Positions 6,143 to 32,324 of a DNA stretch of 32,324 nt are shown here, piece by piece (position 1 is the stretch's first letter; each line of letters starts with the position of its first letter). The translations under genes and the position numbers were made by a program. The DNA comes from Ignavibacteriota bacterium. GTDB taxonomy: Bacteria > Bacteroidota > Ignavibacteria > UBA10030. The stretch lies in assembly GCA_003142475.1 (NCBI GenBank), contig PLMK01000054.1, positions 11,880-44,203 on the forward strand, given 5' to 3'. The notes under the pieces were generated by a model. It worked only from the letters and a program-made list of their open reading frames with translations. It was not told the DNA's origin and did no database searches.

Positions 6143-6373
6143 CCTGTTTACAAACAACAATAATGACCGCAGTTCTAGAATCTAAAAACAAATTGCGGAC
6201 AGAATTGCGTACAAACAAAAAAGGGTATCTGAAATTATCAGACACCCTTAAAGTGGACAGGGAGGGAATTGAACCCCCGACACATGGATTTTTAGACCGA
6301 CTCTGTACTTAATTTTATCGAATTCGAAAAGAATTCAGCACTTAGTGTTAGTACACCATTAGCAGATGAATTA
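6143..6373. repeat. Direct repeat copy 1 (degenerate), with tRNA-Phe-like 3' half and terminator stem
   Basis: This segment matches 30468-30721 in the same orientation with scattered substitutions. Shared blocks include CAGTTCTAGAATCT, AAAAAGGGTATCTGAAAT, GTGGACAGGGAGGGAATTG, TATCGAATTCGAAAAGAATTC and AGCACTTAGTGTTAG. On the minus strand 6254-6297 reads as the 3' half of a tRNA-Phe (variable loop GTGTC, T arm, acceptor CCTGTCC, A73), but the anticodon loop is altered. A hairpin (6220-6232 with 6238-6250) followed by an A-run on the plus strand corresponds to the terminator of copy 2. Compared with copy 2 it lacks a 20-bp segment after GAATTC at 6336, and it has no promoter-like boxes upstream. 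It looks like the older, decayed copy. Confidence 0.85.
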
Positions 6374-6794
6374 TGCAAGTGCTAAGAATTGATTTTTGTT
6401 TATTCTTGCATGTGAATTCCTTTACATTTATTTAGATTTTTATTCCAACTGCCAATATTATTAAAGCTAAATCGCTAAAATATTTTTTTATTAATCCTGT
6501 GTAGACGCCTACCAATCGTGGGAAAACTCTATACTGCTCTGCAAATAGATGCTAACGCGAGTTCATAACAACGGTGATGCATTTTTAAGAAAGATTCTAA
6601 AAACAAAAATTTCTCAGCCGTGCTTCCATTGAATCTTACATGCAACTCACAACGGCGGAGAACCTTCGAAGTGCAGAATGAAACGAAAGAGATTCAATAA
6701 ATTAGATGTGGCATCTGTAATGTTTCTATCGATACAAGGTGATCGGATTTAAAACGATACGCTGAAGATCCTGCGCTTCAGAATATTGTGAAAA

Positions 6795-6832
6795 TAAAAA
6801 AGTCCCCAATGTAGCGGTGACGTCGGGGACTT
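6795..6832 (-). terminator. Rho-independent terminator of the Hdr/MetFV/Glt operon
   Basis: On the minus strand AAGTCCCC (6832-6825) pairs with GGGGACTT (6807-6800) around a 17-base loop and is followed by a T-rich run. It sits about 50 bases after the metV stop codon. Confidence 0.75.
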
Positions 6833-6882
6833 CTTCCAACTATAATTGACATTTTAATTTATAATGATAGAGTCTTCTTTTT

Positions 6883-7551
6883 TTATATCCTGTGATCTTC
6901 ACGAATTATAGTCCGGCTACCGCCGTTTATGCTTGTACTCCAATTCTTAGCAGGATATTCCTTTGAGATTTTATCAAGCTGGCCGATATCTTTTAATCGT
7001 TTATAAATTAGCTGCCATGCGCATGGCTGGTCGGCTCTTATTTCACACCTGTCTTCTCGCGAGCCGCCGCAAGGTCCGTTCAGCATATGTTTTGCACATC
7101 TAGTAATTGGGCAAATCCCGCCGAAATCAGACAATACACATGTCCCGCATTGCATGCATTTTTCTGTCCAGACACCCCTTGATTCAAGAATTCCTAGGAA
7201 GGATGTATCAAGCCCCGCATATACCGGTGTATTCGGATAACGCTCTGCTATTGCCTGCACGCCTGCACCACAACCTAATGAAAGAACCGCATCGTTTTTC
7301 TTGATTTCTTCTGCAGCGCTTTCTATAAAAACATTGTCGCACTGCCGTTCAATTATGAATTCGTTAACTTTTATTTTTTTTCCTGCTTTTCTAGACGCAA
7401 TCCTTAACGCCGAAGAAATAATTGATACTTCCCGTTCACCTCCGGCAAGACACACCGTTACGCAAGTGCCGCAACCGAGAACGAGAACATTTTTATGATC
7501 TTTAACTGCATCGAATATCTCGGGTATTTTTTTCCTTTTTGCAACTATCAT
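6883..7551 (-). CDS. metV: MetV: zinc/Fe-S subunit partner of methylenetetrahydrofolate reductase
   Basis: A 222-residue protein of the MTHFR C-terminal/MetV family, which in acetogens forms a complex with MetF and channels electrons for reducing methylene- to methyl-tetrahydrofolate. The N-terminal part (1-120) has a Rossmann-like VLVLGCGTCVTVC segment (Cys27, Cys30, Cys34) and LSLGCGAG. The C-terminal part has the family cysteine array CMQCGTC (132-138), CPITRC (147-152) and NGPCGGxxxxxCE (about 158-170), followed by another Cys near 177. I use the ATG at 7551; an in-frame TTG two codons earlier is possible. It is the last gene of the operon, 24 bases after mvhD and directly before the terminator. 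Confidence 0.9.
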   Translation of the reverse strand: MIVAKRKKIPEIFDAVKDHKNVLVLGCGTCVTVCLAGGEREVSIISSALRIASRKAGKKIKVNEFIIERQCDNVFIESAAEEIKKNDAVLSLGCGAGVQAIAERYPNTPVYAGLDTSFLGILESRGVWTEKCMQCGTCVLSDFGGICPITRCAKHMLNGPCGGSREDRCEIRADQPCAWQLIYKRLKDIGQLDKISKEYPAKNWSTSINGGSRTIIREDHRI

Positions 7552-7575
7552 TCTCAATCCGCCTTAATAAAGAAT

Positions 7576-8049
7576 TTATTTTTGTGAATTAAGCGTTTCA
7601 AATTCTTTGTATTCTCCGCCAGATCCATCAATTGATTTTCGTATTGGATTCGGCCCTAATTCTTTTATCGTATTGACCATGTCATTTATTACTGTAACTA
7701 AATTTGTTGCCATCGCCGCCGAAATGTTCACCATTCGTAGGCGTTCCTTTTCAATGCCGCTTTCTTCAAGTATATTTCTTGTAGAATTTACCCGCTTTTT
7801 AGCGAATAGATTGCCGTCAATAAAATGGCATCCCCCCTCAAGGCATCCTGCTACTAAAACTCCGTCGGCACCATTTTCAAATGCACGCATATAGAATTCT
7901 ACTTCGAGCCGTCCTGTGCAAGGCGTTCGTATTATACGCACTCCGGATGGATATTGCAGACGCATCGATCCAGCTAAATCCGCCGACGCATATGCACAGA
8001 AATGGCAGCAAAAGGCAATGATTTTTGGTTCAAATACTTTATCGTTCAT
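7576..8049 (-). CDS. mvhD: MvhD/FlpD-family [2Fe-2S] electron-transfer subunit
   Basis: A 157-residue member of the MvhD family, which links electron-input modules to HdrA in heterodisulfide reductase-type complexes. Conserved cysteines are present: FCCHFC (14, 15, 18), TPCTGR (44), and AGCLEGGCHFIDGN (69 and 74), together with the typical ADGVLVAGC strand. The start overlaps the hdrA stop by four bases (ATGA), so it is coupled to HdrA, the partner it would contact. The C-terminal tail beyond residue 135 is polar and probably disordered. A second, shorter MvhD-like gene starts the same operon at 20980. Confidence 0.92.
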   Translation of the reverse strand: MNDKVFEPKIIAFCCHFCAYASADLAGSMRLQYPSGVRIIRTPCTGRLEVEFYMRAFENGADGVLVAGCLEGGCHFIDGNLFAKKRVNSTRNILEESGIEKERLRMVNISAAMATNLVTVINDMVNTIKELGPNPIRKSIDGSGGEYKEFETLNSQK

Positions 8050-11000
8050 TCTTGTACAGTTTCTTCCACGTTAAACAATTCATCTATCATTGATTTGAAA
8101 TGATCTGATTTAAAATGATTGAGCTGAATTGCATGCGCAGGGCATTCGGAGACACATATACCGCAGCCCATACACTTAGCTCTTTCAATTTCTGCCTTGT
8201 GATTATAATTACAAGATGGCGCTCCGTATGGACAGGCTTTTACACAAGTCATGCATGATATACATTTGTCTTGATTCACAATCGAAACCTGTGCGCCTAC
8301 CTCCAAATAAGTCTTTGAGAGAATAGTAGCAGCGCGTGCGGCTGCAGCTTTTGCCTGAGAAATATTCTCGTCTATCATTTTGGGCGAATGTGCCAAACCG
8401 CATAAGAACAAACCTTCTGTCGCAAAGTCCACAGGCCTTAATTTCATATGGGCTTCAACATAAAATCCGTTTGCATTGAGCGGTACTTTAAGCATGTCCG
8501 AAATTCTCTTATTTTCTTTTTCCGCTTTTATGCCAGTACTTAAAATAAGATGATCTGCTTCAATTACGATGCTTTCCGGAAAATCCAGACTTTCCATTTT
8601 AACCGAGCTTAAAATACCGTTCATATCCGATACAATAGGCAAATTATTTTCATCATACCTTATAAAGACAACTCCAGCTTCTCGTGCTTGTTTATAATAA
8701 ACCTCTCTGAATCCGTACGTTCTGATATCTCTGTATAACACATAAATATTTGCAGTCGGATCTTCCTTTTTAATTTTAAGTGCATTTTTAACCGCCATCG
8801 AACAGCATATTCTGCTGCAGTATGGATTTTCCGCATTACGGGAACCGACACATTGGATCATCACATAGGTTTGTCCTTTTTTTTCAATTCCCTTACTGCT
8901 CAGAAATTCTTCAAGTTCCGTTTGCGTTATGACATTCTTTACAGTTCCGTAAGAGTACTCTTTTGTTTCAGCAGGTCTTGCACCGGTGGCAATGATAATC
9001 ACACCGCAAATAAATTCTTTCAGTTTGCCATCCTTAGTAATGTTTATTTTGAATTCACCGATATGACCAGATACACTTTCAATTGTAGAATTCAAATAAA
9101 AATCTATATTTCTATGCGTACTGAATTTTTCAATCAGGTCAGCTTTGAATTTATTAAGATTCTCATTTTCAAGCGTGGAATTAACAAGAGCTAAATTCCC
9201 ACCTAATTGAGAAGACCTTTCGATTAAATCGACGTCATAACCTTGTTCTGCTAAAGACAACGCCGCAAACATTCCGCTTACACCACCACCAATGATAACG
9301 GCATTTTGATGTATTGGAATCTTTTCACCTTCTAAGGACGACAATCTGAATGCCCTTGCGATGGACATCTTCACAAGTTCAATTGCTTTATCCGTCGCAT
9401 TTTCCGGTTCTGAGGAATGAACCCATGAACACTGGTCTCTAATGTTTGCAAGCTCAAAGAGATATTGATTTAATCCTGCTTCCCGCAGCGTCTCGCGGAA
9501 GATTGGTTCGTGCGTCCTTGGAGTGCACGAAGCGACGACAACTCTATTTAACCTGTTCTTTATGATCTGCTCTTTTATGTTGGACAAGCTTGCATCCGAG
9601 CATGTGTACATTGTATGAGACGCAAATACAACTCCCCGCTGATTCTTGATAGATTCCGTTACCTTTTCCACATCGACAGTCCCTGCGATATTCATTCCGC
9701 AATGGCAGATAAATACGCCTATCCTTGGACTTTCATCGGTAACATCATGTTCGTACGGATATTCTTTTGATGTTATTAAAGTATTTTGAGCAGGCGACAA
9801 TAATTCCATCGCCATTGCTGCTGCGGCGCTTGCCTGCATCACTGTTTCAGGAATATCTTTAGGCTCCTGGAATGCTCCTCCAACAAAAATGCCAGGCTTG
9901 GATGTAACGAGCGGCGCCAACCTGTCCGTTTTGCAGAACCCAAATTCATTGATTTCAATTCCAAGTTTGCGGACACTTTCAGTAACAGATATTTTCGGAT
10001 CGATACCAACTGCAAGTACTATAATATCAAAATCTTTTTCTGTATAACCTTTCACTGGATCAAAATAGACCATCCGTAAATCGTTTGAGCCGGGTATTTG
10101 AATAATCCTGGATGGCATGCTTTTGACATATTCAATATTTTTCATCGCGCGGGCGCGTTCATAATACTGATCAAAATCTTTTCCATGCGCCCTTATATCC
10201 ATATTAAAAATAGTACTCTGCAATCCATTCACATGCTCGGAAGCAATCATAGCTTGTTTGGTAGTAGCCATACAGCAAATGGATGAGCAATATTCATTTC
10301 CGGGTTTCGATTCACGGGATCCGACACACTGTATCCAGGCTATTCTTTTGGCTTCTTTGCCGTTGTCCTTCCGTAGGAGATGGCCTTGGTACGGACCTGC
10401 GGCAGAAAGCATGCGTTCAAATTGGACGCTGGTGAGAACATTATCGTATCGTTTGAAACCGAACTCGCCTTTTTTCTCTGCATTATATTCATCAAAGCCG
10501 GTAGCAAGAATGACCGCTCCTACTTCCAATTCAATCTTCTGCTCGCTCATTCCGTGCTCGACTGCTTTCTTTTCGCATACTGAAACGCATTCCATGCATT
10601 CCGAGCATTGAGCGCAATTCAAGCACCTTTCCGCCTCAGAAATTGCATCATTCTCAGAAAACGAATATTCAATTTCATTAAAATTATGAATACGATTTTC
10701 AACATTAAGTTCATCGGCAGAAGCACGTTTCTTTTTTGCGACATTCTTTTCGGATGGCAGCATTTCTTCTGGGAAAGGTTTTAATGAATGCTCAAACCGG
10801 TTAGGCAGCATATCTTCGTTGTTCAAATATCGGGCGATGGATTCTGCGGCGCGTTTTCCGGCGGTAACAGCTTCGATCACACTGCCCGGGCCGGATGCAT
10901 TATCGCCGCCTGCAAAAATACCAGCTGCCGGAGTTTCAAGTGTAAAAGGATTGATTTTAAAACACCCGCGTTCAATATCAATTCCGATATGCCTAGTCAG

Positions 11001-12488
11001 GTCACCATCAACCATCTGACCTATTGCAACGATTACCTGATCAATATTAATTTTTACGGTATTATTTTCATCGTACGATGGTTTAAATTTTCCATTTATA
11101 TCAAAAACACTGGTACATTGTTTAAGTTCTATTCCGACAACGGAGCCGTTACCCAATATTTGTTTGGGTCCCCAACCGTTTCGCAGTACAATTCCTTCTG
11201 CCAGCGTCGCTTCGATCTCTTCTTTATATGCAGGCATTTCATTCCGCTGTTCAAGTGAAACCAGTTCAACTTTTTTTGCACCGAGTCTAAGCGCTGTTCT
11301 TGCCACGTCAACTGCGACATTGCCGCCGCCGATGACTACCAGATTTTCTTTAACCAGCGGCTTGTTCTTTTCGCTAGAAGCTTGCCGTAAGAATTCTACA
11401 CCATAATTCACACCCTTTTTATCCTCACCGCTTATGCCCAATTTTCTGCTGACATGTGCGCCGGCACTGATAAAAACCGCATCACTTTCTTTTTTCAGAT
11501 CGGAAAATGTTTTATCCTTACCGATAGAACAATTCAGAACAATTCGAACGCCCTTGCGTTTTATTAGCTCTATTTCATAATCAAGTATATCTTTTGGAAG
11601 TCTGTACCTAGGAATGCCGCAATAAAGCATTCCGCCTGCGGAATCTCTCGATTCATAAATTGTGACTGCAAAACCTCTATCGGCCAAATCACAAGCAGCA
11701 GTTAATCCGGCGGGCCCGCCACCGATGACAGCTATCTTCTTAGCGTCTGCGGATGGATTTTTCTGCTCGGGTAATTTCAATGCCCCGGATTTATAAAGTT
11801 TTATTTCCTGATCTGAAGCAAACCTTTTTAATTGTCTGATGGCGAGCGGGCTATCCACCTTAGAGCGAGTGCAAGCCATCTCGCAAGGAGCGGGACAAAC
11901 ACGACCGCATATTGCGGCAAATGGGTTTCTTTCGCGTATAAGATTGACCGCCTTTACATACTCTTTTTTCTTTATTAATTGGATATAACCCTGAACATTA
12001 ATATTCGCAGGACATTTCGTTTTGCAAGGGGCATGACCGAGCTTTAATATATTGGGCTTGTTTGGAATTGCCTGCGCATAATATTTTTGTATGGCTTTTC
12101 TTGTGCCAAGATCACGGTTAAATTTATCGTTTACTTCAACAGGACATGCTGTAGTACATTCCCCGCAATCATTGCAGATTTTTTCATTAATGTACCGCGG
12201 CGATTTTTTTATAGTAACTTTGAAGTTTCCAGGTTCTCCTTCAATTTTTTCAAGCTCGGAAAGCGTAAGAATTTCTATATTAAGATTTCTGGCACACTCA
12301 ACTAACTTCGGCGAAATAACACACGTTGCACAATCGCCCGTTGGAAAAGTTTTATCAAGATGAGCCATCATACCACCGATGGTTGCAGAGCGGTTCACTA
12401 AGTACACCTTGTATCCGGAATTAGCAAGATCAAGAGACGCCTGAACACCGGCAATACCTCCACCTTCGACTAAAACAGCACCGGTCAT
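8046..12488 (-). CDS. hdrA: Giant HdrA with inserted GltD module and second HdrA-like half
   Basis: About 1,480 residues, far longer than usual HdrA (~650). Numbering is from the ATG at 12488; an in-frame GTG (12509) or TTG (12515) could add up to nine residues, and none has a strong ribosome site. Order: HdrA flavin start (GGGIAG, about 9-14) with HdrA cysteines (CATC, 53/56); a [4Fe-4S] motif (105-115); a complete GltD-like module (about 155-560) with Cys-rich N-terminus, GGGPAG (256-261) and second nucleotide site GGGNVAVD (about 387-394), as in the NADPH-oxidising glutamate synthase small subunit; a Cys cluster (622-638); the rest of the first HdrA (GAVILATGFDEYN, about 657 on); a second HdrA half with FICHCG (about 928) and GGGVSG (1067-1072); and two C-terminal [4Fe-4S] motifs (1409-1449). 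HdrA carries the bifurcating FAD in known complexes; the GltD insert would supply an NAD(P)H site. Confidence 0.9.
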   Translation of the reverse strand: MTGAVLVEGGGIAGVQASLDLANSGYKVYLVNRSATIGGMMAHLDKTFPTGDCATCVISPKLVECARNLNIEILTLSELEKIEGEPGNFKVTIKKSPRYINEKICNDCGECTTACPVEVNDKFNRDLGTRKAIQKYYAQAIPNKPNILKLGHAPCKTKCPANINVQGYIQLIKKKEYVKAVNLIRERNPFAAICGRVCPAPCEMACTRSKVDSPLAIRQLKRFASDQEIKLYKSGALKLPEQKNPSADAKKIAVIGGGPAGLTAACDLADRGFAVTIYESRDSAGGMLYCGIPRYRLPKDILDYEIELIKRKGVRIVLNCSIGKDKTFSDLKKESDAVFISAGAHVSRKLGISGEDKKGVNYGVEFLRQASSEKNKPLVKENLVVIGGGNVAVDVARTALRLGAKKVELVSLEQRNEMPAYKEEIEATLAEGIVLRNGWGPKQILGNGSVVGIELKQCTSVFDINGKFKPSYDENNTVKINIDQVIVAIGQMVDGDLTRHIGIDIERGCFKINPFTLETPAAGIFAGGDNASGPGSVIEAVTAGKRAAESIARYLNNEDMLPNRFEHSLKPFPEEMLPSEKNVAKKKRASADELNVENRIHNFNEIEYSFSENDAISEAERCLNCAQCSECMECVSVCEKKAVEHGMSEQKIELEVGAVILATGFDEYNAEKKGEFGFKRYDNVLTSVQFERMLSAAGPYQGHLLRKDNGKEAKRIAWIQCVGSRESKPGNEYCSSICCMATTKQAMIASEHVNGLQSTIFNMDIRAHGKDFDQYYERARAMKNIEYVKSMPSRIIQIPGSNDLRMVYFDPVKGYTEKDFDIIVLAVGIDPKISVTESVRKLGIEINEFGFCKTDRLAPLVTSKPGIFVGGAFQEPKDIPETVMQASAAAAMAMELLSPAQNTLITSKEYPYEHDVTDESPRIGVFICHCGMNIAGTVDVEKVTESIKNQRGVVFASHTMYTCSDASLSNIKEQIIKNRLNRVVVASCTPRTHEPIFRETLREAGLNQYLFELANIRDQCSWVHSSEPENATDKAIELVKMSIARAFRLSSLEGEKIPIHQNAVIIGGGVSGMFAALSLAEQGYDVDLIERSSQLGGNLALVNSTLENENLNKFKADLIEKFSTHRNIDFYLNSTIESVSGHIGEFKINITKDGKLKEFICGVIIIATGARPAETKEYSYGTVKNVITQTELEEFLSSKGIEKKGQTYVMIQCVGSRNAENPYCSRICCSMAVKNALKIKKEDPTANIYVLYRDIRTYGFREVYYKQAREAGVVFIRYDENNLPIVSDMNGILSSVKMESLDFPESIVIEADHLILSTGIKAEKENKRISDMLKVPLNANGFYVEAHMKLRPVDFATEGLFLCGLAHSPKMIDENISQAKAAAARAATILSKTYLEVGAQVSIVNQDKCISCMTCVKACPYGAPSCNYNHKAEIERAKCMGCGICVSECPAHAIQLNHFKSDHFKSMIDELFNVEETVQE

Positions 12489-12521
12489 CTTTTTCTTTTC
12501 AATCTTCACAAACAAATCTTT

Positions 12522-13394
12522 CTAATAATTACTTTTAATAGCTTCAATAATAGATCTTGGAGAAACCACACATTTATCCATTCCTAGCTTCTCAGGAGCA
12601 ATACCTAAACACAAACCCACAAGCTGAGTTATATAAACTATGGGTATATTATGACTGCTATGTTTTACTTTATTAATATCGCTTTGCCTTAGATCTAAAT
12701 TTACCTGACACATTGGGCAGGCGACCGCCATACATTCTGCGCCGGCAGCTTTCGCCATGCCTAATATGGAATTAGAAAGTTCTATAACAACATCTGTTCG
12801 TGTGAGAGCAAATCCTCCGCCGCAACATTCTACTTTATGGGGCCAATCGATACTCTCACCCCCCATAATTGTTATGAGACTGTCCATAATCGTAGGATTT
12901 TCAGGATCATCAAAATTGGTTGCTTCTTTCGGTCTCACTAGCAAACATCCGTAGTAATTGGCAACCTTCAACCCATCCAAAGAATGTGTGAAGGCCTCCT
13001 GCAATTTTTTAACTCCAACATTCTTAATAAGTACCTCAACAAAATGATGCACGTTCACACTTCCATCATACTCTTCTCCTAATGAATCAGCAACTTCCTT
13101 CCTGATATCGGGATACTTTTGAATTTCATAGTTGGCGACTTTCATTCTATTGTAGCACGCCGCGCAAAAAACAACCATGTCGAGCTCCATTTTTTTTGCC
13201 ATCAAAAGATTTGCGGCAGGGAGTGCAAGAGAGAGAATTTTATCGGTTTGGTGTGCCGGTGTTGACCCGCAGCAAGTCCAGCCTTTTGGCTCGATCAACT
13301 CAATGTCTAGAATTTTTGACACTTCACGGATCGACATATATTGATCACGTGCCGTTGACTCTGCTGAACATCCGGGATAATATGCATATTTCAT
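12522..13394 (-). CDS. hdrB: Heterodisulfide reductase subunit B-like protein (HdrB)
   Basis: A 290-residue HdrB with two complete CCG domains. Domain 1 has Cys9 (YYPGCS), Cys41-Cys42-Gly and Cys77-x2-Cys80. Domain 2 has Cys150, Cys190-Cys191-Gly and Cys226-x2-Cys229. In methanogens these bind two non-cubane [4Fe-4S] clusters that split heterodisulfides. In organisms without coenzyme M the natural substrate is unknown, and in MetFV complexes HdrB is thought to pass electrons onward. Both cysteine sets are intact, so cluster binding is expected. It lies 68 bp after hdrC and a few bases before hdrA, the standard CBA order. Confidence 0.93.
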   Translation of the reverse strand: MKYAYYPGCSAESTARDQYMSIREVSKILDIELIEPKGWTCCGSTPAHQTDKILSLALPAANLLMAKKMELDMVVFCAACYNRMKVANYEIQKYPDIRKEVADSLGEEYDGSVNVHHFVEVLIKNVGVKKLQEAFTHSLDGLKVANYYGCLLVRPKEATNFDDPENPTIMDSLITIMGGESIDWPHKVECCGGGFALTRTDVVIELSNSILGMAKAAGAECMAVACPMCQVNLDLRQSDINKVKHSSHNIPIVYITQLVGLCLGIAPEKLGMDKCVVSPRSIIEAIKSNY

Positions 13395-13462
13395 TCTGTT
13401 CTAACACTCCAAAACTAATTATCCACCCTCTTAAATCAAAGAAAGCTGGAAAAGCATCTGCA

Positions 13463-14011
13463 TTAGTTCTTTTTCTTAAATATTCTTGTTACATATTTCT
13501 TATCGGCTTTGAACGATGGAAATAATGCTATCTTTCGTTTTCGAAGCATCATAGGAAACTTATCTGCATCCTGAAAATAATTTGATGTCCCGACTTTATA
13601 TGCCGCAATCATTCCAAGATCGTATGTTCTGCCAAATACCTTCACCGTTTTCAAAAACCATTTGTTAAACAGAGGAACGTTGCCTTTTTGTTTAGCTGTA
13701 TTTCTCTTAATAGAAATAATTCGTAACGCATCCATAATTGCTGCCATATCAATTTGCATTGGACATCGTGAAAAACATGTTTCGCAAGAAGCGCACATCC
13801 ATACGAGATCGCTGTTTACTGTTGAATCGTCTTCGTTCAATAGCAGTCTTCTAATAATTTCTGAAGGCGGCACTTTAACCAGTGTTGCAACTGGACAGCC
13901 GTTTGTACATTTTTTACATTGCAGACATCGGGCAACATCAACGCCGGAAATTTCTCTGACAGCATTTAATAGTCCGGCTTCCCTTTTATTTTTACTGATT
14001 ACGATAGGCAT
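13463..14011 (-). CDS. hdrC: Heterodisulfide reductase subunit C-like protein (HdrC)
   Basis: A 182-residue iron-sulfur protein with two [4Fe-4S] motifs: CLQCKKCTNGCP (Cys29, 32, 35, 39) and CASCETCFSRCP (Cys73, 76, 79, 83). HdrC wires electrons from HdrA to HdrB. No membrane helix is present, so it is the soluble type rather than the HdrE/DsrM-coupled type. The C-terminal third is basic and has no motif I know. It follows the glutamate synthase subunit by 18 bases. Confidence 0.92.
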   Translation of the reverse strand: MPIVISKNKREAGLLNAVREISGVDVARCLQCKKCTNGCPVATLVKVPPSEIIRRLLLNEDDSTVNSDLVWMCASCETCFSRCPMQIDMAAIMDALRIISIKRNTAKQKGNVPLFNKWFLKTVKVFGRTYDLGMIAAYKVGTSNYFQDADKFPMMLRKRKIALFPSFKADKKYVTRIFKKKN

Positions 14012-14029
14012 ATTTCTTTCGAAAGAATT

Positions 14030-16693
14030 TTATTCCTTTATTTCTTCAACGAGTTCATCAGCTTCTTCCTCTTCGCCATAAACATCTTGTTCAGGTGTAG
14101 ACGGAGTGCCTTCAATGCTTGGCGAAATTTTACGATAGACCTTCAGAGGATCAAGTTTTTTGCCATTTACAGTGAGTAAATCATCTATCTTGATTCCGAA
14201 AAGTTTTTCATTCTCTGTTAGATATGGTAATATCAATTCCCAATCCTTTTCCGTAAAAGGAGAAAAGATGCATCCGTTTAACTGCTCGTTAATTAATTGC
14301 CGTTTAGGATCCCTCACGAATGCAGCACCTCCCGAAGCCAAAGAAAAGAGATTGCTTCCGGGGTAAGGCTCAGGAAGAGGCATAACTTCACCTTCTTCGT
14401 TAAACTTCATTCCGTTCAAAATAACAAATCCCCCTTTATTATGAGGATCACCTGCCATAAATGATTCACCGAGAAAATCGAGGCTTGTTCCATTAATAAC
14501 AATCCTAGGCCTTCCAACAGAATTAATCATCGGACGTCCGGCAGCATTTCCTTTTACAAAGATCGAACCTCCTTTAGCGCCGTATAAAAATGTCTGACCG
14601 ACATCCCCGTGGATCACTAATTTTCCATCCTTAATTATCTGACCTAATTGATCCTGAGCATTACCATGAATGGTTACGGTCATTCCATCAATCCCGGAGC
14701 CAAGATAATCGCCTGAACTTCCGTACACGTCAATTGTTACGTCCTGCGTTTCAGGTCCTAAACCGCAACCGACATAACGCTGTCCGACGCAATTAAAAAG
14801 GATAAAACTTTTCCAGCCTAACTTATATGCTCTAACAATATACGTCGCGTCGCACTCATCACCTTCCGGCGGGAATTTCTTAGAATCTACTACGAGAATA
14901 TTTTCATTGTTTTTTGGTTCACGAAGATTGCTTCGATTATCAAAATCTAAGAGACGGTACTCGGATAATTCTTCATTTTCAGAACAAAGCTTTGGAATAT
15001 TTTTAAACAGCGAATCAAGTTCATGCCGAACTATATAAAGAATGTGCGAGCGTCTTTTCGCACCTGTTTTGTAATTCCTATCATTCAATAATGTTAATGT
15101 ATTGATAGCATAAGATGTCAGGGCACTGTTTTTACCGAAATTTCCTATCGCCTTGCATGCTATACGGATATCGTCGAAAGACCACTGTGGAATACTATCC
15201 CTGACAAAATCAAAAATATATTTTCCTGCGAAGGCGTATTCGGTAATTATTTTTTCGATCTGTTCCTTGTTTCTTGAGTCAGAAATTTCTTTTGTGAAAT
15301 CACAGCTTTCGGTTTTTTCAGTTATGACAACCGGAATACCGAACTTATCTTTGCATTCGAGCCTATGTTTGCCTCCGTTATCTTTCACAATATCGAATAT
15401 AAATGCACCGCCGTCTGAATAACTTCCACCGCGAGCATTCCAGTACTTATCGGCAATAGGACAAATTCGTTTATCATCTTTTGCAAGGCTTGCAAGCGTA
15501 GCATCGATCGCTTGCTTTTCGGAACCGATAATTCCGACCTGAACTTCTCCATCAACAAATGCAAAAACCTGTGGCCTCAACATTGCAGTATCTGTGATAC
15601 CGAGCAATTGGAATTTGCGGCTCTCTGTAAGATTACGCGCTATGATAAAGAACCATGGCCCATCTGGAGAACCGTGCATATGTGTCGTTTGAATTGCCCT
15701 GTAAATTTCCTGTTTTTCTTGGGGCAAACGGTCAAAGTCGAGTTCTGTAGTAGGCGCTAATGCCTCTATTATATATTCCACCGGATATTTGTATGTTCTA
15801 GATAATAAATCAAACATCAGGGCTGAGACTTCAGTATCGGTTATAAATTGCGGATAAATATTGCGCTGCTTTAAATATTCCGTTACAGAATGATAATTAG
15901 CAAAATCACCGTTGTGCACCAAGGCCATATTCATCGCTGTAAACGGATGAGCACCGCCCGGATGCCAAACGCGGCCTCTTGTCGGGTATCGTTGATGTGC
16001 GATCCAGACATGCGCACAGAGATCGTCTATTTTATAATACTGAGTGACAGCTTCGGCAAAGCCGACTACTTTCAGGATCATAATATTACGTCCCTGTGAC
16101 ATTACGAAAGCTGTTTGCTTTTTAGCAGAAGTATAAAATTCATGATTGAGTTTGAAGCTGTTCTGATTTACAAACTCATCTTCAACATCTCGCCGGTTAA
16201 GATTCGTAAAATTGTTTTCTGAGATAAATTTTCTCAAAATATTTTCTTTTACACGTACAAAATACCTGTATACATCTGGCGGCTTGACTTCAAGTCCAGG
16301 AACACTTTTCCAATCAATGACCGTATCGAGTTTTGCAGATTTTTTTACATCGAACACAGGAGCGACATACTTATTTTCAACATCGTGATGGGCAGATGCC
16401 TCAAGATATGCTATATGGAGCATGTAGCAATCATCGAGCACTTCTCTCGATACACCTAGTTGTTCGGGAATAAAACCTACAGCCGCTATTCCACCGCCCT
16501 TGCCGTTGCCTCGGTTATGCATGAGTCTTGAAGGCTCGTGGATATGCTTGCCTGGAACAGGTTCTGTGCAGCAAAAACCTACAACACCGCATCCTCCTTC
16601 AGCTTCCATAGCAATCGATTTTTCCGGAAATTGAAGATTTTTATTCAGTTGTCTTTTCGACTTAATTATTTTTTCTATATTCTTTCTATCCAT
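14030..16693 (-). CDS. Glutamate synthase glutaminase + GXGXG subunit (domains 1 and 3, no FMN domain)
   Basis: An 887-residue protein combining GltB domain 1 and domain 3. The class-II glutamine amidotransferase part (about 35-440) shows the nucleophile Cys35 in GGCGVVG, HQRYPTRG (233-240), HNGDFANY (260-267) and ITDTEV (284-289). The GXGXG beta-helix part (about 640-790) shows repeating glycine patterns such as YGSSGDYLGSGIDG, IHGNAQDQLGQ, IHGDVGQ and VKGNAAGR. Cys35 is preceded by 34 residues; bacterial GltB usually cleaves a propeptide to expose this Cys, which I cannot verify here. The segment 450-630 between the parts is unfamiliar. The FMN domain is encoded by the next gene upstream, so the enzyme is split as in archaeal-type glutamate synthases. 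It would supply ammonia from glutamine. Confidence 0.88.
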   Translation of the reverse strand: MDRKNIEKIIKSKRQLNKNLQFPEKSIAMEAEGGCGVVGFCCTEPVPGKHIHEPSRLMHNRGNGKGGGIAAVGFIPEQLGVSREVLDDCYMLHIAYLEASAHHDVENKYVAPVFDVKKSAKLDTVIDWKSVPGLEVKPPDVYRYFVRVKENILRKFISENNFTNLNRRDVEDEFVNQNSFKLNHEFYTSAKKQTAFVMSQGRNIMILKVVGFAEAVTQYYKIDDLCAHVWIAHQRYPTRGRVWHPGGAHPFTAMNMALVHNGDFANYHSVTEYLKQRNIYPQFITDTEVSALMFDLLSRTYKYPVEYIIEALAPTTELDFDRLPQEKQEIYRAIQTTHMHGSPDGPWFFIIARNLTESRKFQLLGITDTAMLRPQVFAFVDGEVQVGIIGSEKQAIDATLASLAKDDKRICPIADKYWNARGGSYSDGGAFIFDIVKDNGGKHRLECKDKFGIPVVITEKTESCDFTKEISDSRNKEQIEKIITEYAFAGKYIFDFVRDSIPQWSFDDIRIACKAIGNFGKNSALTSYAINTLTLLNDRNYKTGAKRRSHILYIVRHELDSLFKNIPKLCSENEELSEYRLLDFDNRSNLREPKNNENILVVDSKKFPPEGDECDATYIVRAYKLGWKSFILFNCVGQRYVGCGLGPETQDVTIDVYGSSGDYLGSGIDGMTVTIHGNAQDQLGQIIKDGKLVIHGDVGQTFLYGAKGGSIFVKGNAAGRPMINSVGRPRIVINGTSLDFLGESFMAGDPHNKGGFVILNGMKFNEEGEVMPLPEPYPGSNLFSLASGGAAFVRDPKRQLINEQLNGCIFSPFTEKDWELILPYLTENEKLFGIKIDDLLTVNGKKLDPLKVYRKISPSIEGTPSTPEQDVYGEEEEADELVEEIKE

Positions 16694-16709
16694 GCACTTA
16701 ACGCTGTCG

Positions 16710-18281
16710 TTATTTCTGCTTTTTTGATATATCCAGATGCATTAACAAATCCGTTCGTCCACGTAATTCTTTAACACTCTTCATACCAAGGCGCTTTAAT
16801 ATCTCTTTTAACCCAGTTGACCATGCATTATAAAGATTAATGATTCTCTGCGTTCCCCATTCTAATGTAATTTGTGAAGCAAGTTCTGGATTTGTTGTTG
16901 CGATACCTCTTGGGCATCCTTTGCCGCTTTCACACCTACTGCATCTTAAACAGGATAGCGCCACCAATTCTGCTGTACCAATGACAACGCCGTCGGCACC
17001 TAAACAAATCGCTTTGGCAATATCATAATAATTTCGTATACCGCCGCTTGCTATTAGTACAACGGCATCGCGGACACCTTCGGTTGAAAGAAAATTATGG
17101 ACTTTCGGAATTGCGTAGTCGATAGGCATTGCAATATTTTTTTTGGCTATATCAGGAGCAGCTCCTGTGCCTCCGTATCCACCATCTATATGAATAATGT
17201 GTGTGCCTGCATAATAACTCCCAACAGCAACCATATCGACATCGGTCGGAGTAGATACTTTCGTAGAAATTAAAGCACGAGGATTAACATGTTTTATCCA
17301 ATCGATATGTTTCATATGATCTTCGATCGAATAAACACTATGGAATGGGAATGGGGAGAATAATGGAATTCCCTGTACCGCTTCGCGCATTTTCGCGACA
17401 GCTGGAGTATTTTTTGTCCCCAACAAATGACCGCCTAATCCCGGTTTAGCTCCCTGAGCATATTTAAATTCAACAATCGGAACTCTTTGAATAGTTTCTT
17501 CCCTTACTCCGAAAAGCCCAGTAGCCACCTGTGTTATCATGTGATCGTCATACGGTCTTAAGCGCTCCATGTAGCCACCCTCTCCGGAGCAGGAAAAAGT
17601 ATTCCATGCCGTAGCCGCTCGCACCTTAGATAATTGTGTGATATTACTGATAGAACCAAATGACATTCCTCCACCGTACCATGGTACATCAATTTTTATC
17701 TTAGGCCTGCCATCGTTTCTTCTATTCAATTCAAGGCTGATGTCGATTTCATCGGGGTCAACTATGGGCGGTTTTTCTGGATACACAATTCTAATTCTAT
17801 CGAAGCCGCCGCCTGAGTTGCCTGTTTCATATTCAAAATCATAATCCTCAGGAATTACGTCTCCTGTTTCTGCCATTCTCCAAGTTGCAAGAATCATGTC
17901 CGACGTCCATCGATAATCTCCTAAAACTTCCATCATAGGATTCTCGACTAATCTTAAAGCACTATTCGGACATTTTGCTACACAAAAGTTTTCTGTTTTC
18001 TCGCAAACAAACCCATTGCATTTATAACTTTGCTGACTGGCAAATAGCTTATATCCTTTTTTTAGTACATGAACACCCTTAGTACATGTTTTAACGCATG
18101 TACCGCACATTTTACATTTCTCTTCATCACGATAAATGAGATATTTTGCGATTTCGTTGCGGTACCTCGAACGAGCCGGCTTAATATTTCTTGCTACCTC
18201 GGCTTGCGGAACACGGGTTTTAAAAGTATTCCGAGGGAGTATTTCTTCTAGATTGGTTTTATTTTCCAAAGATCGGTCCAT
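16710..18281 (-). CDS. Glutamate synthase FMN-domain subunit with N-terminal ferredoxin domain
   Basis: A 523-residue archaeal-type glutamate synthase catalytic subunit, which converts 2-oxoglutarate and ammonia to glutamate using FMN. The N-terminus has a [4Fe-4S] motif CKMCGTCVKTC (56-66) and further cysteines CNGFVC...CVAKC (88-104). The TIM-barrel has GGGMSFGSIS, the AKPGLGGHL loop, HIDGGYGGTGAAP (FMN phosphate region), and CLRCSRCESGKGCPRG, the usual [3Fe-4S] site. I start at the ATG at 18281, overlapping the upstream gene by 23 bases, because the frame further upstream is only the shadow of that gene's end. All catalytic motifs look intact, so I expect true activity. Confidence 0.9.
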   Translation of the reverse strand: MDRSLENKTNLEEILPRNTFKTRVPQAEVARNIKPARSRYRNEIAKYLIYRDEEKCKMCGTCVKTCTKGVHVLKKGYKLFASQQSYKCNGFVCEKTENFCVAKCPNSALRLVENPMMEVLGDYRWTSDMILATWRMAETGDVIPEDYDFEYETGNSGGGFDRIRIVYPEKPPIVDPDEIDISLELNRRNDGRPKIKIDVPWYGGGMSFGSISNITQLSKVRAATAWNTFSCSGEGGYMERLRPYDDHMITQVATGLFGVREETIQRVPIVEFKYAQGAKPGLGGHLLGTKNTPAVAKMREAVQGIPLFSPFPFHSVYSIEDHMKHIDWIKHVNPRALISTKVSTPTDVDMVAVGSYYAGTHIIHIDGGYGGTGAAPDIAKKNIAMPIDYAIPKVHNFLSTEGVRDAVVLIASGGIRNYYDIAKAICLGADGVVIGTAELVALSCLRCSRCESGKGCPRGIATTNPELASQITLEWGTQRIINLYNAWSTGLKEILKRLGMKSVKELRGRTDLLMHLDISKKQK

Positions 18282-19659
18282 AAATTTCTTCTTCGATTTC
18301 GTCTTTGAATATAGCGCGCCCAACATCGCCGCGGAGCCTGCGAGCTTCCCGCATACCCATTGCTCCCATAAGTTCGACCAATTGCCAATGCCATGCACCG
18401 ATTAAATTAGTCATACGCCCTACCCCATATTGTAAATCAATCTCTGTATCTAATTTGGAAGGACAGTAATCGCCGGGCTTGCAGGTTTCACACAGCCGGC
18501 ATTCGATTGCAATTAATAGCGGCAGGTTTATTGAAACAACATCTGCACCGCAAATAATGGCCTTAGCAACATGCTCCGATAAACCAATTCCACCGCCTGC
18601 AACAATTGTTATTTCATCTCTCTTTTCATTTTTTATTAAGCATCCATGAACTTCACGGAGAACATCCTTCATGAACCGTGGATTTTTTGTGCCAATTTCA
18701 TCGCCGTTAAGATCAGCAATCAGATGAATGGCTTCAACATCGATTTTCGATAATTCATCAACGCGCTTTACGACTTTTTCATCCATCATTATTCGTACAG
18801 CGATAATTATTCCCGGATGATTTTTCTTTATCGACTCGATTTGCTGTACGACATTATTACTATCCGGAATTTCTACAAGTCTTGTTTTAGCAAGAATTTC
18901 CTTCGGTATCTGAGGTCCATCCGGATTTAAAAAAAAGGCAATATTTTTCAAATATTTTTCTTTGCCATGCATTTTTATCGATAGCCATTTTTTTGAATCG
19001 ATAATGGCAATGAGGCCCGTTTGATTTGCAGTCTCAATAATACATGGCTCGAGAACAGGCAGTGTATGTTTTTCAGAAGGCATATCGAAAATAACTGGGA
19101 AGGGAATTGAAATAAGTGGGGGCAGAACGGTTTCTAATTTATTGTCTTTAAATTCCAGGAAGTGCGGTTTCTTACCGATATCAGCAGATGTGCTGATGTA
19201 TTCTCTTCCGTGAATACCGTCGCGCGTCGGGCGGACAATTTCGGACATATCTGTCCACATTGAATCAAATCCTGGGCCTGAAAATTTGCCTCTATATCCA
19301 GCACCAGAGACCGGTACTTTGCCTGTCTCTGCTTCTAACCACGTCGTACTTAAAATTTGTGGCTTCCAATATTCGTTGCCAAGTTTTTGATATTCTGAAT
19401 TTAATGCCAGTGTCAGTAAATTCTTAGTACAATTTTGGACACATGAAAAACATCCCATGCACTCATAATAGAGTGTATGAACTTCATCAAGATCTCTAAT
19501 AAATATGCTTTCTTCTCGATATTTATCATAGACACATGCTTTTTTAACGCAGTTATGACATCGGGCACAATCTTCGCGCCAGTCAACGATTCCGCATTTT
19601 CCTATGCGTGGAAGTCTGGGCTGAACATGATTCGTTTTAATATGATATTTTTCAGGCAT
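18259..19659 (-). CDS. Divergent glutamate synthase-like FMN/Fe-S paralogue
   Basis: A 466-residue paralogue of the next gene. The N-terminal cysteine-rich domain carries CARCHNCVKKAC (31-42) and CMGCFSCVQNC (67-77), two ferredoxin-like sites. The barrel is shorter and diverged: I find TIVAGGGIGLSEHVAKAIICGADVVSINLPLLIAIECRLC and a [3Fe-4S]-like CRLCETCKPGDYCP, but no GGYGGTGAAP loop, no AKPGLGGHL loop and no GGGMSFGSIS. It probably keeps the Fe-S clusters and a barrel while losing glutamate synthesis, so it may be structural or wire electrons between MetF and the active synthase; that is inference. Start ATG 19659, 10 bases after metF. Confidence 0.82.
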   Translation of the reverse strand: MPEKYHIKTNHVQPRLPRIGKCGIVDWREDCARCHNCVKKACVYDKYREESIFIRDLDEVHTLYYECMGCFSCVQNCTKNLLTLALNSEYQKLGNEYWKPQILSTTWLEAETGKVPVSGAGYRGKFSGPGFDSMWTDMSEIVRPTRDGIHGREYISTSADIGKKPHFLEFKDNKLETVLPPLISIPFPVIFDMPSEKHTLPVLEPCIIETANQTGLIAIIDSKKWLSIKMHGKEKYLKNIAFFLNPDGPQIPKEILAKTRLVEIPDSNNVVQQIESIKKNHPGIIIAVRIMMDEKVVKRVDELSKIDVEAIHLIADLNGDEIGTKNPRFMKDVLREVHGCLIKNEKRDEITIVAGGGIGLSEHVAKAIICGADVVSINLPLLIAIECRLCETCKPGDYCPSKLDTEIDLQYGVGRMTNLIGAWHWQLVELMGAMGMREARRLRGDVGRAIFKDEIEEEIYGPIFGK

Positions 19660-19669
19660 GGTTAACTAT

Positions 19670-20560
19670 TTATAATCCGGCTTGAGAAATAATCTCATTT
19701 ATGATATCTTCTTTCCCGCCCGAAATGATATGAATACCGCTTAATCCTTTCATTTCTTTTATCTTATTTATTGTTTCAATGCAGATCGCGATGCCTCTTT
19801 TCTTTTGTTCGGCAGGTCCTCCGGCATCTTTAATACTGTTAATATGCGATTCCGGTATGTAAAAATCGGTATGTTTTTTCAAGAGACCTGCCGCTTCGTC
19901 ATAGCTTTCAAGCGGATAAATTCCTGCTATGAATGCAGCCTTCTCTGTCAAACCTTCTTGGTATGCCGCGTTTAACCATTCATGAAAATCAGTTGTATTG
20001 AAAACTCCCTGCGTCTGAATAAACTTTGCCCCAGCCCTAATTTTTTTTGTCAAGCGCATAATGTTAAGTTCAAGAGGTCTTAGATAGGGATTTGCTACCG
20101 CACCTATAAGCATTGAAAAATCACCACCGATTTTTGCACCGTTTAGGAGGACTCTTTCATCATTCATCTTTGTCACAATATCTATCAGTTGAATAGAGTC
20201 GATATCATAAACATTTGCCGATTCCGGTATTTCTGTAATACTTTGATGATATCCAGAAAGGCAAAGAATATTCTGGATGCCGAACGATGCGGCGCCTAAT
20301 ATGTCCGACTGAAGGGCGATCCTATTGCGATCTCGAGTCACAATTTGATACACCGGTTCAATACCTGCTTGTTTCAATTTTACTGCCGATGCCAATGCTG
20401 AAATTACAGGACCGTATGGGTTGTCTGCTACATTTACTGCAAGCACACCCGAAATTTGTGATTTATTTATGGGATCGGATTCAATGTTTGTACCAGCCAG
20501 ATATTCTGCAGTAACAATGAAATCCCCTTCTTCAATTTTCTTGGCTAATAAGCTATTCAT
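19670..20560 (-). CDS. metF: Methylenetetrahydrofolate reductase, flavin subunit (MetF)
   Basis: A 296-residue beta/alpha barrel of the MTHFR family, reducing 5,10-methylene- to 5-methyl-tetrahydrofolate on FAD. Recognisable parts are the first strand FIVTAEYLAGT with the family's Glu, VNVADNPYGP, EPVYQIVTRDRNRIALQSDILGA, the glycine-rich GGDFSMLIGAVANPY, and KIRAGAKFIQTQGVF. The length matches the short bacterial type used with MetV. There is an AAGAGAA ribosome site before the ATG. Neighbours (MvhD-like 9 bases upstream, glutamate synthase paralogue 10 bases downstream, metV at the operon end) place it in an HdrABC-linked complex like that of Moorella, here interleaved with glutamate synthase genes. 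Confidence 0.92.
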   Translation of the reverse strand: MNSLLAKKIEEGDFIVTAEYLAGTNIESDPINKSQISGVLAVNVADNPYGPVISALASAVKLKQAGIEPVYQIVTRDRNRIALQSDILGAASFGIQNILCLSGYHQSITEIPESANVYDIDSIQLIDIVTKMNDERVLLNGAKIGGDFSMLIGAVANPYLRPLELNIMRLTKKIRAGAKFIQTQGVFNTTDFHEWLNAAYQEGLTEKAAFIAGIYPLESYDEAAGLLKKHTDFYIPESHINSIKDAGGPAEQKKRGIAICIETINKIKEMKGLSGIHIISGGKEDIINEIISQAGL

Positions 20561-20569
20561 TTTATTCTC

Positions 20570-20980
20570 TTACAATATTTCGATTGCTTTTTCATGTTCG
20601 TGTATTATTTGCCGTATACATATTATTAATTCATTAATAATATTTTCTGTTCTATTTTTATTATCAAGATGAATAAACCAAACGCAATCACCGCCTATAC
20701 CTGTCTCTATTAAAAGATCATTCATGGCTTCTATCCGTTTTTGGGCACGAAGGTTGCCTTGAAGAAACTTACATTCGCCCTTCATACAACCGGCAACTAT
20801 CGCGATATCAGATCCTGTCTCGATAGATTTTAAAATATACTCAGTTGCGACTTTCCCAGAACAGGGCACACTGATGGCATTTAATTCAGCTTCTTCAAGT
20901 TGCGAATTGATGCGATTTACTTCTGCAGAGGACATTGAATTCAAGCAATGAAAAAGTGAGATTTTAATTGAGGAATTCAT
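20570..20980 (-). CDS. Short MvhD-like protein with reduced cysteine set
   Basis: A 136-residue relative of MvhD. It keeps the core VPCSGKVATEYILKSIETG (Cys40), AIVAGCMKGECKFLQGN (Cys65, Cys70) and the typical AQKRIEAMNDLL helix. The N-terminal CCxxC of the family is reduced to a single HCLNS (Cys12), so the number of cluster ligands is at the minimum of four. It may bind a [2Fe-2S] cluster through Cys12, 40, 65 and 70, or be structural. It is the first gene of the operon, immediately before metF. It could be a MetF-specific electron entry, while the canonical MvhD at 7576 serves HdrA; that split of roles is inference. Confidence 0.82.
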   Translation of the reverse strand: MNSSIKISLFHCLNSMSSAEVNRINSQLEEAELNAISVPCSGKVATEYILKSIETGSDIAIVAGCMKGECKFLQGNLRAQKRIEAMNDLLIETGIGGDCVWFIHLDNKNRTENIINELIICIRQIIHEHEKAIEIL

Positions 20981-21556
20981 CTTTTTATAATAATTTTTTC
21001 GGATGATATATTTTATAAGATTGAAACAAATATTTTATGCATCAACTCTTTATAGTCTTAAACCTATCGTTTTATCCTTTATTGTATATTTTTAAAGCCC
21101 TTCCACTTTCACTGGCTCCTTGTAGCATAATGCTACATCCACCAAAAAAGCTAAGGTCTTTCACTACTATACAAATTGGGATCACCAGTCAGGATGTTTA
21201 TTTAAGGAGATTTGATATTCGGTTGGTTTTCCGCACATCATCTCCTTATGACGATCGACGAAGGTTTACTTATCTATCGCTTGTACTACCAACCAAACAG
21301 GTCGCTTAACATTGCTGAAGAGTTTGATTTCTTCTGCCATCAGCTTATTATATTTAATCTTAAATAATAATTATTCAAGATATAATCAAGTATTAATATA
21401 TAAAAATGTTAAAATATTAAGTTTGAGGATATATATTCTTTTCTATAAATTCTCTAAGAAAAGAGAAGAAGAGCATTAATAAAATTTAAATAAATAATAG
21501 TTGAGAGAATTGTCCGCACTTACTACAAATCACAATGCCACGATCTGTTCCAGATA
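20981..21556. other. Intergenic region between the ABC-type operon and the Hdr/Met/Glt operon
   Basis: About 575 bp, very AT-rich next to both ends. It must hold the promoter of the Hdr/Met/Glt operon and the end of the ABC-type operon. A 90-codon plus-strand frame at 21037-21309 has no family signature. A 17-bp palindrome is annotated separately. No clear terminator with a T-run is visible after 21557. Confidence 0.5.
21121..21137. promoter_or_regulatory. 17-bp perfect palindrome, possible operator
   Basis: TGTAGCATAATGCTACA has two 8-base arms with one central base, 141 bp upstream of the first gene of the Hdr/Met/Glt operon. Such a symmetric short site fits a dimeric repressor or activator, but I recognise no specific regulator. 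Confidence 0.35.
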
Positions 21557-30541: not shown

Positions 30542-30575
30542 AAAAAAGGGTATCTGAAATCATCAGACACCCTTT
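30542..30575 (-). terminator. Terminator after the tRNA-Phe-like sequence
   Basis: On the minus strand a 13-bp stem (30575-30563 with 30557-30545, one G-T pair) with a short loop runs into a T-run (A-run at 30542-30547 on the plus strand). It lies directly downstream of the tRNA-like sequence on the same strand. Confidence 0.75.
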
Positions 30576-30578
30576 AAG

Positions 30579-30634
30579 TGGACAGGGAGGGAATTGAACC
30601 CCCGACACATGGATTTTCAGTCCCACCCTGCACC
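30579..30634 (-). pseudogene. tRNA-Phe(GAA)-like pseudogene lacking the D arm
   Basis: Read on the minus strand it ends with a standard tRNA 3' half: anticodon loop CTGAAAA (anticodon GAA, Phe), variable loop GTGTC, T arm GGGGG/TTCAATT/CCCTC, acceptor strand CCTGTCC and A73, with no encoded CCA. The 5' side reads GGTGCAGG, which can pair with the acceptor strand at six of seven positions, but the ~18 bases of the D arm are missing and the first two anticodon-stem pairs are mismatched. At 56 bases instead of ~73 it should not be a working tRNA. It keeps its own promoter-like boxes upstream and a terminator downstream, so it may still be transcribed. Confidence 0.6.
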
Positions 30635-30725
30635 TAAATTCTATCGAATTCGAAAAGAATTCGATACCTTTTTTACCACTTCAGCACTTAGTGTTAGCAC
30701 ACTGTTAGCAGATGAATTGTGGATG

Positions 30726-30754
30726 AGTATAATAATTCATTCATAATTTGTCAA
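30726..30754 (-). promoter_or_regulatory. Near-consensus sigma-70-type promoter for the tRNA-like unit
   Basis: On the minus strand TTGACA (30754-30749) and TATACT (30731-30726) are separated by exactly 17 bases. The predicted start, near 30719, would give a ~175-base RNA running through the repeat to the terminator at 30542-30575. Copy 1 has no equivalent. Confidence 0.65.
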
Positions 30755-30963: not shown

Positions 30964-31002
30964 ATAATCTGCAGATCGTGGGTTCGAATCCCGTCAGCTT
31001 GA
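30964..31002 (+). pseudogene. tRNA 3'-half fragment (anticodon probably CAT-type)
   Basis: The plus strand reads ATAATCTGC, then AGATC (variable loop), then a T arm GTGGG/TTCGAAT/CCCGT, acceptor strand CAGCTTG and A73. The lengths fit the tRNA 3' half exactly. The end of the anticodon loop (ATAA) suggests a CAT anticodon (Met/Ile type), but the base before it has changed and no 5' half is present. Such fragments mark junctions of elements inserted in tRNA genes. It ends eight bases before the inverted repeat at 31010. Confidence 0.5.
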
Positions 31003-31009
31003 GCGCCTA

Positions 31010-31023
31010 GTTAGGTTGCGCCA
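31010..31023 (+). repeat. Left 14-bp inverted repeat, integron core-site-like
   Basis: GTTAGGTTGCGCCA, the perfect inverse of 32301-32314. On the minus strand this end reads ACCTAAC followed by TAGGCGCTCAAGCTGACG, which fits an attC inverse core site (RYYYAAC) and its left-arm CTCAAG sequence. The rest of a normal attC is not visible; the tRNA fragment begins instead. Confidence 0.5.
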
Positions 31024-31030
31024 AATAGAT

Positions 31031-32298
31031 TTAATATTTTCTTTCAATTTTTCTTGCTAAAAGAAATACAAATAAAGCAAGTGTGATGTATCCAAAGACA
31101 ACTTCGCAAATTATTATAAATTGGCCGAGTAGATTAACTGGTTTGATTCCTTCTAAACCAATTGAAGTTAGAATCAAAGTACTGTTATAAAAAACATTCA
31201 TAAATCCTTCATCAAGTCCGTGGAAACTATTATTAAAACAAATATACGACAATGTAAATAAGGTATTAGCTATAAGTGCAAAGAGACCTAATGCACTATA
31301 AGAAGACCAATGCTTTGTCGACAGAACTACAAAGAGAAATGCAAATCTCTCGCGTAAAGGACTACTTGGTAAATGATCAATTCTTTGCATTGTATGCTGG
31401 TACCAGAGAATATATTCTTTAAGGGCTCTAGTTTCTGGTAAAGTCATCTCATTAGTCGGATTATTAGCAAATCCAGTGTGATTAGCTAATTGCTGGCTTA
31501 TACTAGTTTGATTACCAATCCGAAAAAAACGTATTAGAGCCTGTTTGACTAGGAATAGATATGAAACTTGAGAATAAATAAATGGTTGACTAAGACATTT
31601 ATCGCCAAGTGGATGAATACCGTAGACTCCTGCCCCTGTCATATTTGCGTTATTGAAATATGATCCCTTCTTTACATGTATGTTGCTCAATCGTGCATTG
31701 CAAAATGAGGCGCCTATAAAATCGGTGTTTATCAGATCAACTTGCCAGATTACTGCGTTATCAAGGATCGCATGTCCAAAGCAAATGTTAATAAGTCGGC
31801 AATTACTTAGTCTGATCCCTGATAAATCTATTCCAATCAGATCAACTTGTCCTCCAATTCTACTCGTTTTAAATGAATAAACGAATTCTTTGATAGTCCA
31901 AGAACGATTTTGAAAGTTGAATGAAAAATCACTGAAATCAATAATCGCATAGAAATCATCAAGATTGATTCTAACTTTTTCTTCCCACTCAGGATCATCC
32001 ATCATGAGCGAATGAGTAGATACGAATTTTTCAGTAACTTCTTTCTCCTTGTCTCCGATTTTTTTCGCAACATAATTTAGAATTGCATTCCTACATTCAA
32101 TTCCCATAAGTGATTTCCATCGAACCATATTTGCAAATTCATCGCTATGCACACTCGGCCCATAGATCAATGGATCAATTTTAGCTCTATTGGTAAAGTA
32201 GAAATCAGAGACATTTATATCTGTCTTATATCCATTTTGAATAAGGATTCTATTAGAGGATAATTAACCAATGGTATATTTTTATGTTTTCTAAACAT
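31031..32298 (-). pseudogene. Frameshifted pentapeptide-repeat / two-helix channel-like protein gene, possible integron cassette
   Basis: From the ATG at 32298 a reading frame runs 28 codons, then stops. Moving by one base at the four-T run (32235-32238 on the plus strand) restores one continuous protein of about 421 residues down to the stop at 31031, with good coding sequence on both sides (ESLFK | NGYKTDINVSDFYFTNRAKIDP). A one-base loss in the A-run of the coding strand explains this. The middle (about 120-215) has pentapeptide repeats (DLSGIRLSNCRLINI, DLINTDFIGASFCNARL). The C-terminus has two membrane helices around a pore-like STLILTSIGLEGIKPVNLLGQ, as in K+ channels, but the selectivity filter TVGYG is replaced by TSIGLEG. 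The start codon is three bases from the right inverted repeat, as in integron cassettes. A start at the TTG at 32170 would give a 379-residue form. Confidence 0.7.
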
Positions 32299-32300
32299 GA

Positions 32301-32314
32301 TGGCGCAACCTAAC
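32301..32314 (-). repeat. Right 14-bp inverted repeat, integron core-site-like
   Basis: On the minus strand GTTAGGTTGCGCCA preceded by GGTCC. GTTAGGT fits the core site GTTRRRY that begins every integron cassette, and the gene's ATG follows after only two more bases. The attC arm that should precede it runs past the window edge. Confidence 0.5.
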
Positions 32315-32324
32315 GGACCGGCGC

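Follow-up and report, generated by a model that had tools for sequence, protein, structure and literature searches.

A perfect 14-bp inverted repeat encloses a single gene at the end of the stretch of DNA analysed here (32,324 nt; hereafter, the window), and raises the question of what kind of element it bounds. The window corresponds to C68:11880-44203 of a draft genome of 3.58 Mb in 81 contigs, which we place in the genus that includes the Ignavibacteriae MAG fen_1299. An initial annotation of the window had read the unit as a lone integron gene cassette beside tRNA remnants, and we follow that proposal from the borders of the unit to the rest of the genome and its relatives.

The inverted repeat claimed in that annotation is present, with arms GTTAGGTTGCGCCA and TGGCGCAACCTAAC at positions 31010-31023 and 32301-32314 and 1277 nt between them. 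The minus strand reads GTTAGGT-TGCGCCATC-ATG at one end and TGGCGCA-ACCTAAC-TAGGCGC-TCAAGCTGACGG at the other. GTTAGGT (32308-32314, minus strand) fits the core-site consensus GTTRRRY of an R' box and marks the cassette start, and ACCTAAC (31010-31016, minus strand) fits RYYYAAC and stands in the same register as the R'' box of other attC sites, as the inverse core site of the cassette's own attC; the unit thus carries both marks of an integron cassette, GTTRRRY at the start and RYYYAAC at the end. Outside the R'' box lies TAGGCGC-TCAAGCTGACGG, which genome-wide attC comparison identifies as the spacer and L'' half of that attC (30991-31009, minus strand), so that the core-site match and the first half of an attC named in the initial annotation both hold; the leader from GTTAGGT to ATG, described there as two codons, is 9 nt long. 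The core site directly follows GCGCCGGTCC (32315-32324, minus strand, up to the window end), the final 10 nt that precede R' in the attC belonging to the upstream neighbour cassette; some 30 further attC 3' halves in the genome show this same order. The outer 7 nt of the 5' arm, TGCGCCA (32301-32307, minus strand), pair with the outer 7 nt of the 3' arm, TGGCGCA (31017-31023, minus strand).

The length of the repeat is by itself unremarkable and proves little: in shuffled windows, matches of 14-bp arms within 2.5 kb occur at a mean of 0.6 per window, a frequency that would accommodate a chance inverted repeat. The composition of the arms speaks differently, in that GTTRRRY stood at the start in 0 of 42 chance repeats from shuffled windows, and the pairing rule described below, which holds over 87 cassettes, refutes chance. 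A rho-independent terminator cannot form from arms 1.3 kb apart, and we regard a terminator or any other accidental repeat as having practically no chance of being the right reading.

The decisive evidence for a cassette is genomic. The half-site TCAAGCTGACGG has 46 exact copies in the genome, spaced by about 1 kb on several contigs, against 0 for a reversed control pattern. A covariance model (R1; threshold E <= 1e-3) gives 78 attC matches on 23 contigs, 4 of them on the contig that carries the integrase gene. Nineteen complete, gap-free attC sites run from RYYYAAC-CA-GGCGCTCAAGCTGACGG to CCGCAGCTTAGCGCC-GGTCC-GTTRRRY and are 155-219 nt long; in bottom-strand folds their strong stems pair GGCGCT with AGCGCC, AAGCTG with CAGCTT and CGG with CCG, so that a single G and a single T, six bases apart, stay unpaired. 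In known attC sites, an extrahelical G lies in L'' and a T lies 6-8 nt from it (PMC2727003), and the arrangement in this genome fits that description. Many attC sites contain NN scaffold gaps (L043, L044, L045, L046 and others), and since arrays are broken at the attC repeats, cassette counts per array are lower bounds. An attC 20-mer is found in Ignavibacteriae MAGs of the genome collection, and the attC sites of G001, a genome of the same genus, have the coordinates seen in MAG fen_1299, which underlies the genus placement given above. When 20 regions surrounding integrases of relatives were scanned for generic attC sites, the congener G004 yielded sites of the same type and a few other relatives yielded candidates. 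Members of this attC family (142-145 bits) also occur on two contigs assigned by binning to Syntrophaceae UBA7544 and Aminicenantes PFL55 (L089:2613-2767 and L095:564-719), which are either misbinned contigs or transferred cassettes.

The genome also encodes the enzyme expected of an integron. Contig C49 carries an intact IntI of 319 amino acids that scores 446 bits against TIGR02249 (cut-off 265); its best solved relative is the Vibrio cholerae integrase 2a3v (286 bits), and the alignment retains the R, H-x-x-R, H and Y motifs, as predicted for an integron-type tyrosine recombinase with its catalytic residues. Among 150 relatives, 31 have an IntI above the cut-off. The cassettes on C49 diverge from intI, and between intI and the first cassette, directly before the first core site, lies GTCTAATCATAG, a candidate attI core that is common to G004. 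With an intact integrase gene, a candidate attI core and 78 attC matches, where two sites would make an array, the genome probably carries a complete integron. In G004, 24 attC sites form one run up to its intI; in the source genome, the 78 attC sites fit numerically the superintegron measure of more than about 20 cassettes with similar attC per array, although the contigs break inside attC sites. Several other features of C49 may be recorded here. A second, short integron integrase fragment with one in-frame stop lies just behind the intact gene (C49:6810-6932). The first genes beside the integrase encode a DUF5343 protein and a Swt1-type HEPN protein (L035:4085-5306, minus strand), a pair that matches the candidate phage-defence pair PDC-M34A/B (E about 1e-72), and a TIR-domain protein (PF13676) is encoded further along the cassette array.

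The initial annotation had proposed an attC model search past position 32324 and a search for intI, and would have given up its reading had the genome held neither an integrase gene nor further attC sites. It clearly holds both. Past the window end, a 2-N scaffold gap directly follows GGACCGGCGC, and a second decayed cassette comes next; its reading frame is frameshifted and terminates at a TGA within the TCAAGCTGACGG of its attC (L011:2780-3190, minus strand). This attC, although cut by the gap, matches the covariance model with 25 bits (L011:2688-2793, minus strand). The window cassette is therefore not 'lone', as it had been called, since a second decayed cassette adjoins it and dozens more lie elsewhere in the genome. 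Past the second cassette follow aldo/keto-reductase and dehydrogenase-like genes (named by eye from sequence), and no integrase was found on the contig of this cassette pair. Some points count against the cassette reading: in the neighbouring attC, which the gap interrupts, the R'' box GTCTATC is poor; the codon presumed to start the window gene is out of frame; and the window cassette's own attC is incomplete, with no match to the full attC covariance model within the window. One further attC of the genome, at G000:C11:66326, likewise lacks a proper R'' side.

The own attC of the window cassette consists of R''-L'' only. It ends after TCAAGCTGACGG, the remaining ~130-190 nt (VTS, L' and R') being missing, and then runs into a tRNA-Met-like 3' half, TCTGCAGATCGTGGGTTCGAATCCC (30964-30992, plus strand), to which it is fused. 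A complete folding site, with R''-L''-L'-R' and extrahelical bases, is thus found at the other attC sites of the genome and not at this one, and with R''-L'' alone left, the unit amounts to the remnant of a cassette, not to an active one. Since L' and R' of its attC are gone, the known mechanism implies that the window cassette is probably immobile and should no longer be excised.

The tRNA remnants that the initial annotation saw beside the cassette stood up in part. A tRNA-Phe 3' end (30580-30635, minus strand) is clear, aligning at 98% identity across 81 bp with the part of contig C74 where the intact gene lies, whereas the piece at 30964-30992 is merely tRNA-Met-like, 90% identical over 29 nt to the tRNA-Met of contig C11, and ARAGORN reports no tRNA there; Rfam and ARAGORN searches of the window gave no matches. 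The tRNA-Phe remnant belongs to a block that occurs twice, at 6217-6394 and 30542-30741, in copies that are 80% alike and each contain a tRNA-Phe 3' end. The relative G003 lacks 5944-21556 and is syntenic to the window up to 30379, after which it has other genes and no match to the right of 30379, which makes the region a variable one; this comparison does not give the exact point of an empty insertion site of the cassettes. The block copies may be borders of variable regions outside the cassette, and such borders look like an explanation of the tRNA remnants without any integron link.

The junction itself could have another origin: the cassette would be real, but a chimeric assembly would have joined its truncated attC to an unrelated contig and so given it an apparent place beside the tRNA remnants. 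That the assembly has NN gaps inside many attC sites, one of them at the window edge, and that the own attC breaks off right after a repeated 12-mer would suit this account, whereas the junction contains no N, the attC and the tRNA-like piece have just a few bases in common, and the spacer TAGGCGC (not CAGGCGC) is a mutation of this site's own, as expected in a decaying attC. We consider a chimera possible yet improbable.

The cassette contains one gene behind its 9-nt leader. The ATG after the core site opens 27 codons only and lies in a different frame from the main one, which spans 410 codons from stop to stop (31031-32263, minus strand). This frame has no ATG near its start, and so the gene is frameshifted, mis-sequenced, or initiated at an alternative codon such as TTG 32170, the first TTG of the frame. 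The product has pentapeptide repeats and an ion-channel-like 2TM region at the C-terminus. Pfam returns PF00805 (E 2e-10) and, below the cut-off of 22.5 bits, PF07885 (E 3e-4, 20.9 bits), and KirBac3.1 matches weakly at residues 318-405; the latter two matches belong to a predicted C-terminal two-helix, pore-like region. Homologues of the gene were found neither in 293 relatives nor in plasmids, and its absence from the relatives is as expected for a cassette.

The outer halves of the 14-nt arms extend beyond the 7-nt R boxes, and this outward extension is a general feature across the genome. A set of 87 cassettes was taken, without selection of rows, from five genomes in the genus, with the source genome supplying 38. 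In this set, the two ends of a cassette pair with each other for a median of 13 bp, and pairing of at least 12 bp is seen in 76% of them against 1% of swapped pairs. In 30 cassettes, positions 8-13, beyond the R box, are complementary between own ends in 80-97% of cases; with swapped partners, the nearly constant positions 9-10 alone stay high and the others drop to 24-39%. A set of 46 cassettes gives a covariation score of 0.515 against 0.119 for shuffled partners (0/500), where leaving out three poorly paired rows raises the score somewhat, and sliding the partners destroys the pairing. The 14-bp repeat is accordingly the R stem plus a 7-bp outward extension, a general rule in the genus. At 37 sites, the arm pairs with the start of its own cassette for a mean of 13.5 bp and with that of the next cassette in the array for 6.2 bp (p=1.5e-7). 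Because the arm finds about 13 bp in its own start and about 6 bp in its neighbour, the extended stem is a property of the excised circle alone.

These observations also bear on a different kind of mobile element with 14-bp terminal inverted repeats, for example a MITE or an insertion sequence with a passenger gene, for which a perfect repeat around one gene would be the natural hallmark. The sequences outside the arms are the two halves of attC, present genome-wide (46 half-site copies); the arm sequence is cassette-specific, unlike the ends that members of a transposon family share; an integrase of the right family is present and the gene has no transposase domain. Together with the swapped-pair control, these points have in practice already refuted such an element, which we rate as very improbable. 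Separately, arms common to unrelated cassettes were considered as a sign of a birth unit and are not convincing: 8 pairs share at least 13 nt, one pair being a single cassette that occurs in both of two genomes, whereas independent positions would predict 2.9 such pairs and 300 shuffles gave at most 9.

The directly observed elements are both core sites, the terminal 3' part of the neighbouring attC, the half attC of the cassette itself, the integrase gene, the candidate attI core, the attC set and the covarying ends. We are highly confident that the unit is a decayed cassette from a large integron of the sedentary chromosomal type. In the proposed mechanism, the integrase of contig C49 would act on attC folded from its bottom strand and recombine it at the R' box, cassettes would be excised as circles by attC x attC recombination, and circles would be reinserted at attI beside the integrase gene. 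Either IntI-mediated insertion or the breaking up of a larger array may have brought the window cassette to its place, where it lies with the second decayed cassette, away from the integrase. The long stem, confined to the circle, might favour folding, and hence capture, of circles over excision from arrays. We put forward only tentatively that this cassette-specific complement of 13-15 bp is a selected device that eases capture over excision, or else a trace of how cassettes are made; if it were such a device, the capture bias would be one-way and would help large arrays to grow.

A bare inverted repeat around one gene can thus reveal a whole integron in a little-studied phylum. Pairing of a cassette's own ends offers a simple sequence signature by which cassettes can be found and precisely delimited, even with a broken attC. 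The difference in pairing between circle and array can be measured and is relevant to the bias between integration and excision and to the origin of cassettes.

The initial annotation had remarked that integrons are rarely discussed in such genomes, which is partly true: complete integrons of Chlorobi and Ignavibacteriae, detected with IntegronFinder, are on record (PMC9024848). Those integrons come from the same bacterial group and follow the same definition of a complete integron; the passage of that report that covers them lists integrons, and the attC family, the extended arms and the cassette content are not described in it. Integrons in Ignavibacteriae being already recorded, the present element is of an ordinary kind, and what gives it wider interest is that cassette ends pair so strongly, and specifically in the circle. 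The sedentary chromosomal integrons or superintegrons of the Vibrio cholerae type resemble the present one in several respects: IntI lies beside a candidate attI core, the cassettes form long arrays whose attC sites are long and alike, their functions are mostly unknown, and they are oriented divergently from intI. They differ in that the present integron belongs to another phylum (Ignavibacteriae), has attC sites of 155-219 nt, and comes from an assembly too fragmented to display one continuous array, the congener G004 having a run of 24 attC sites. CALIN elements resemble the window's cassette pair in lying on a contig where no integrase was found; here, just two decayed attC sites are involved and the integrase is elsewhere in the genome. 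Finally, most known cassettes show pairing beyond the R box, to 9-11 nt (PMC2727003), whereas the pairing in this genus is longer and strongly covarying.
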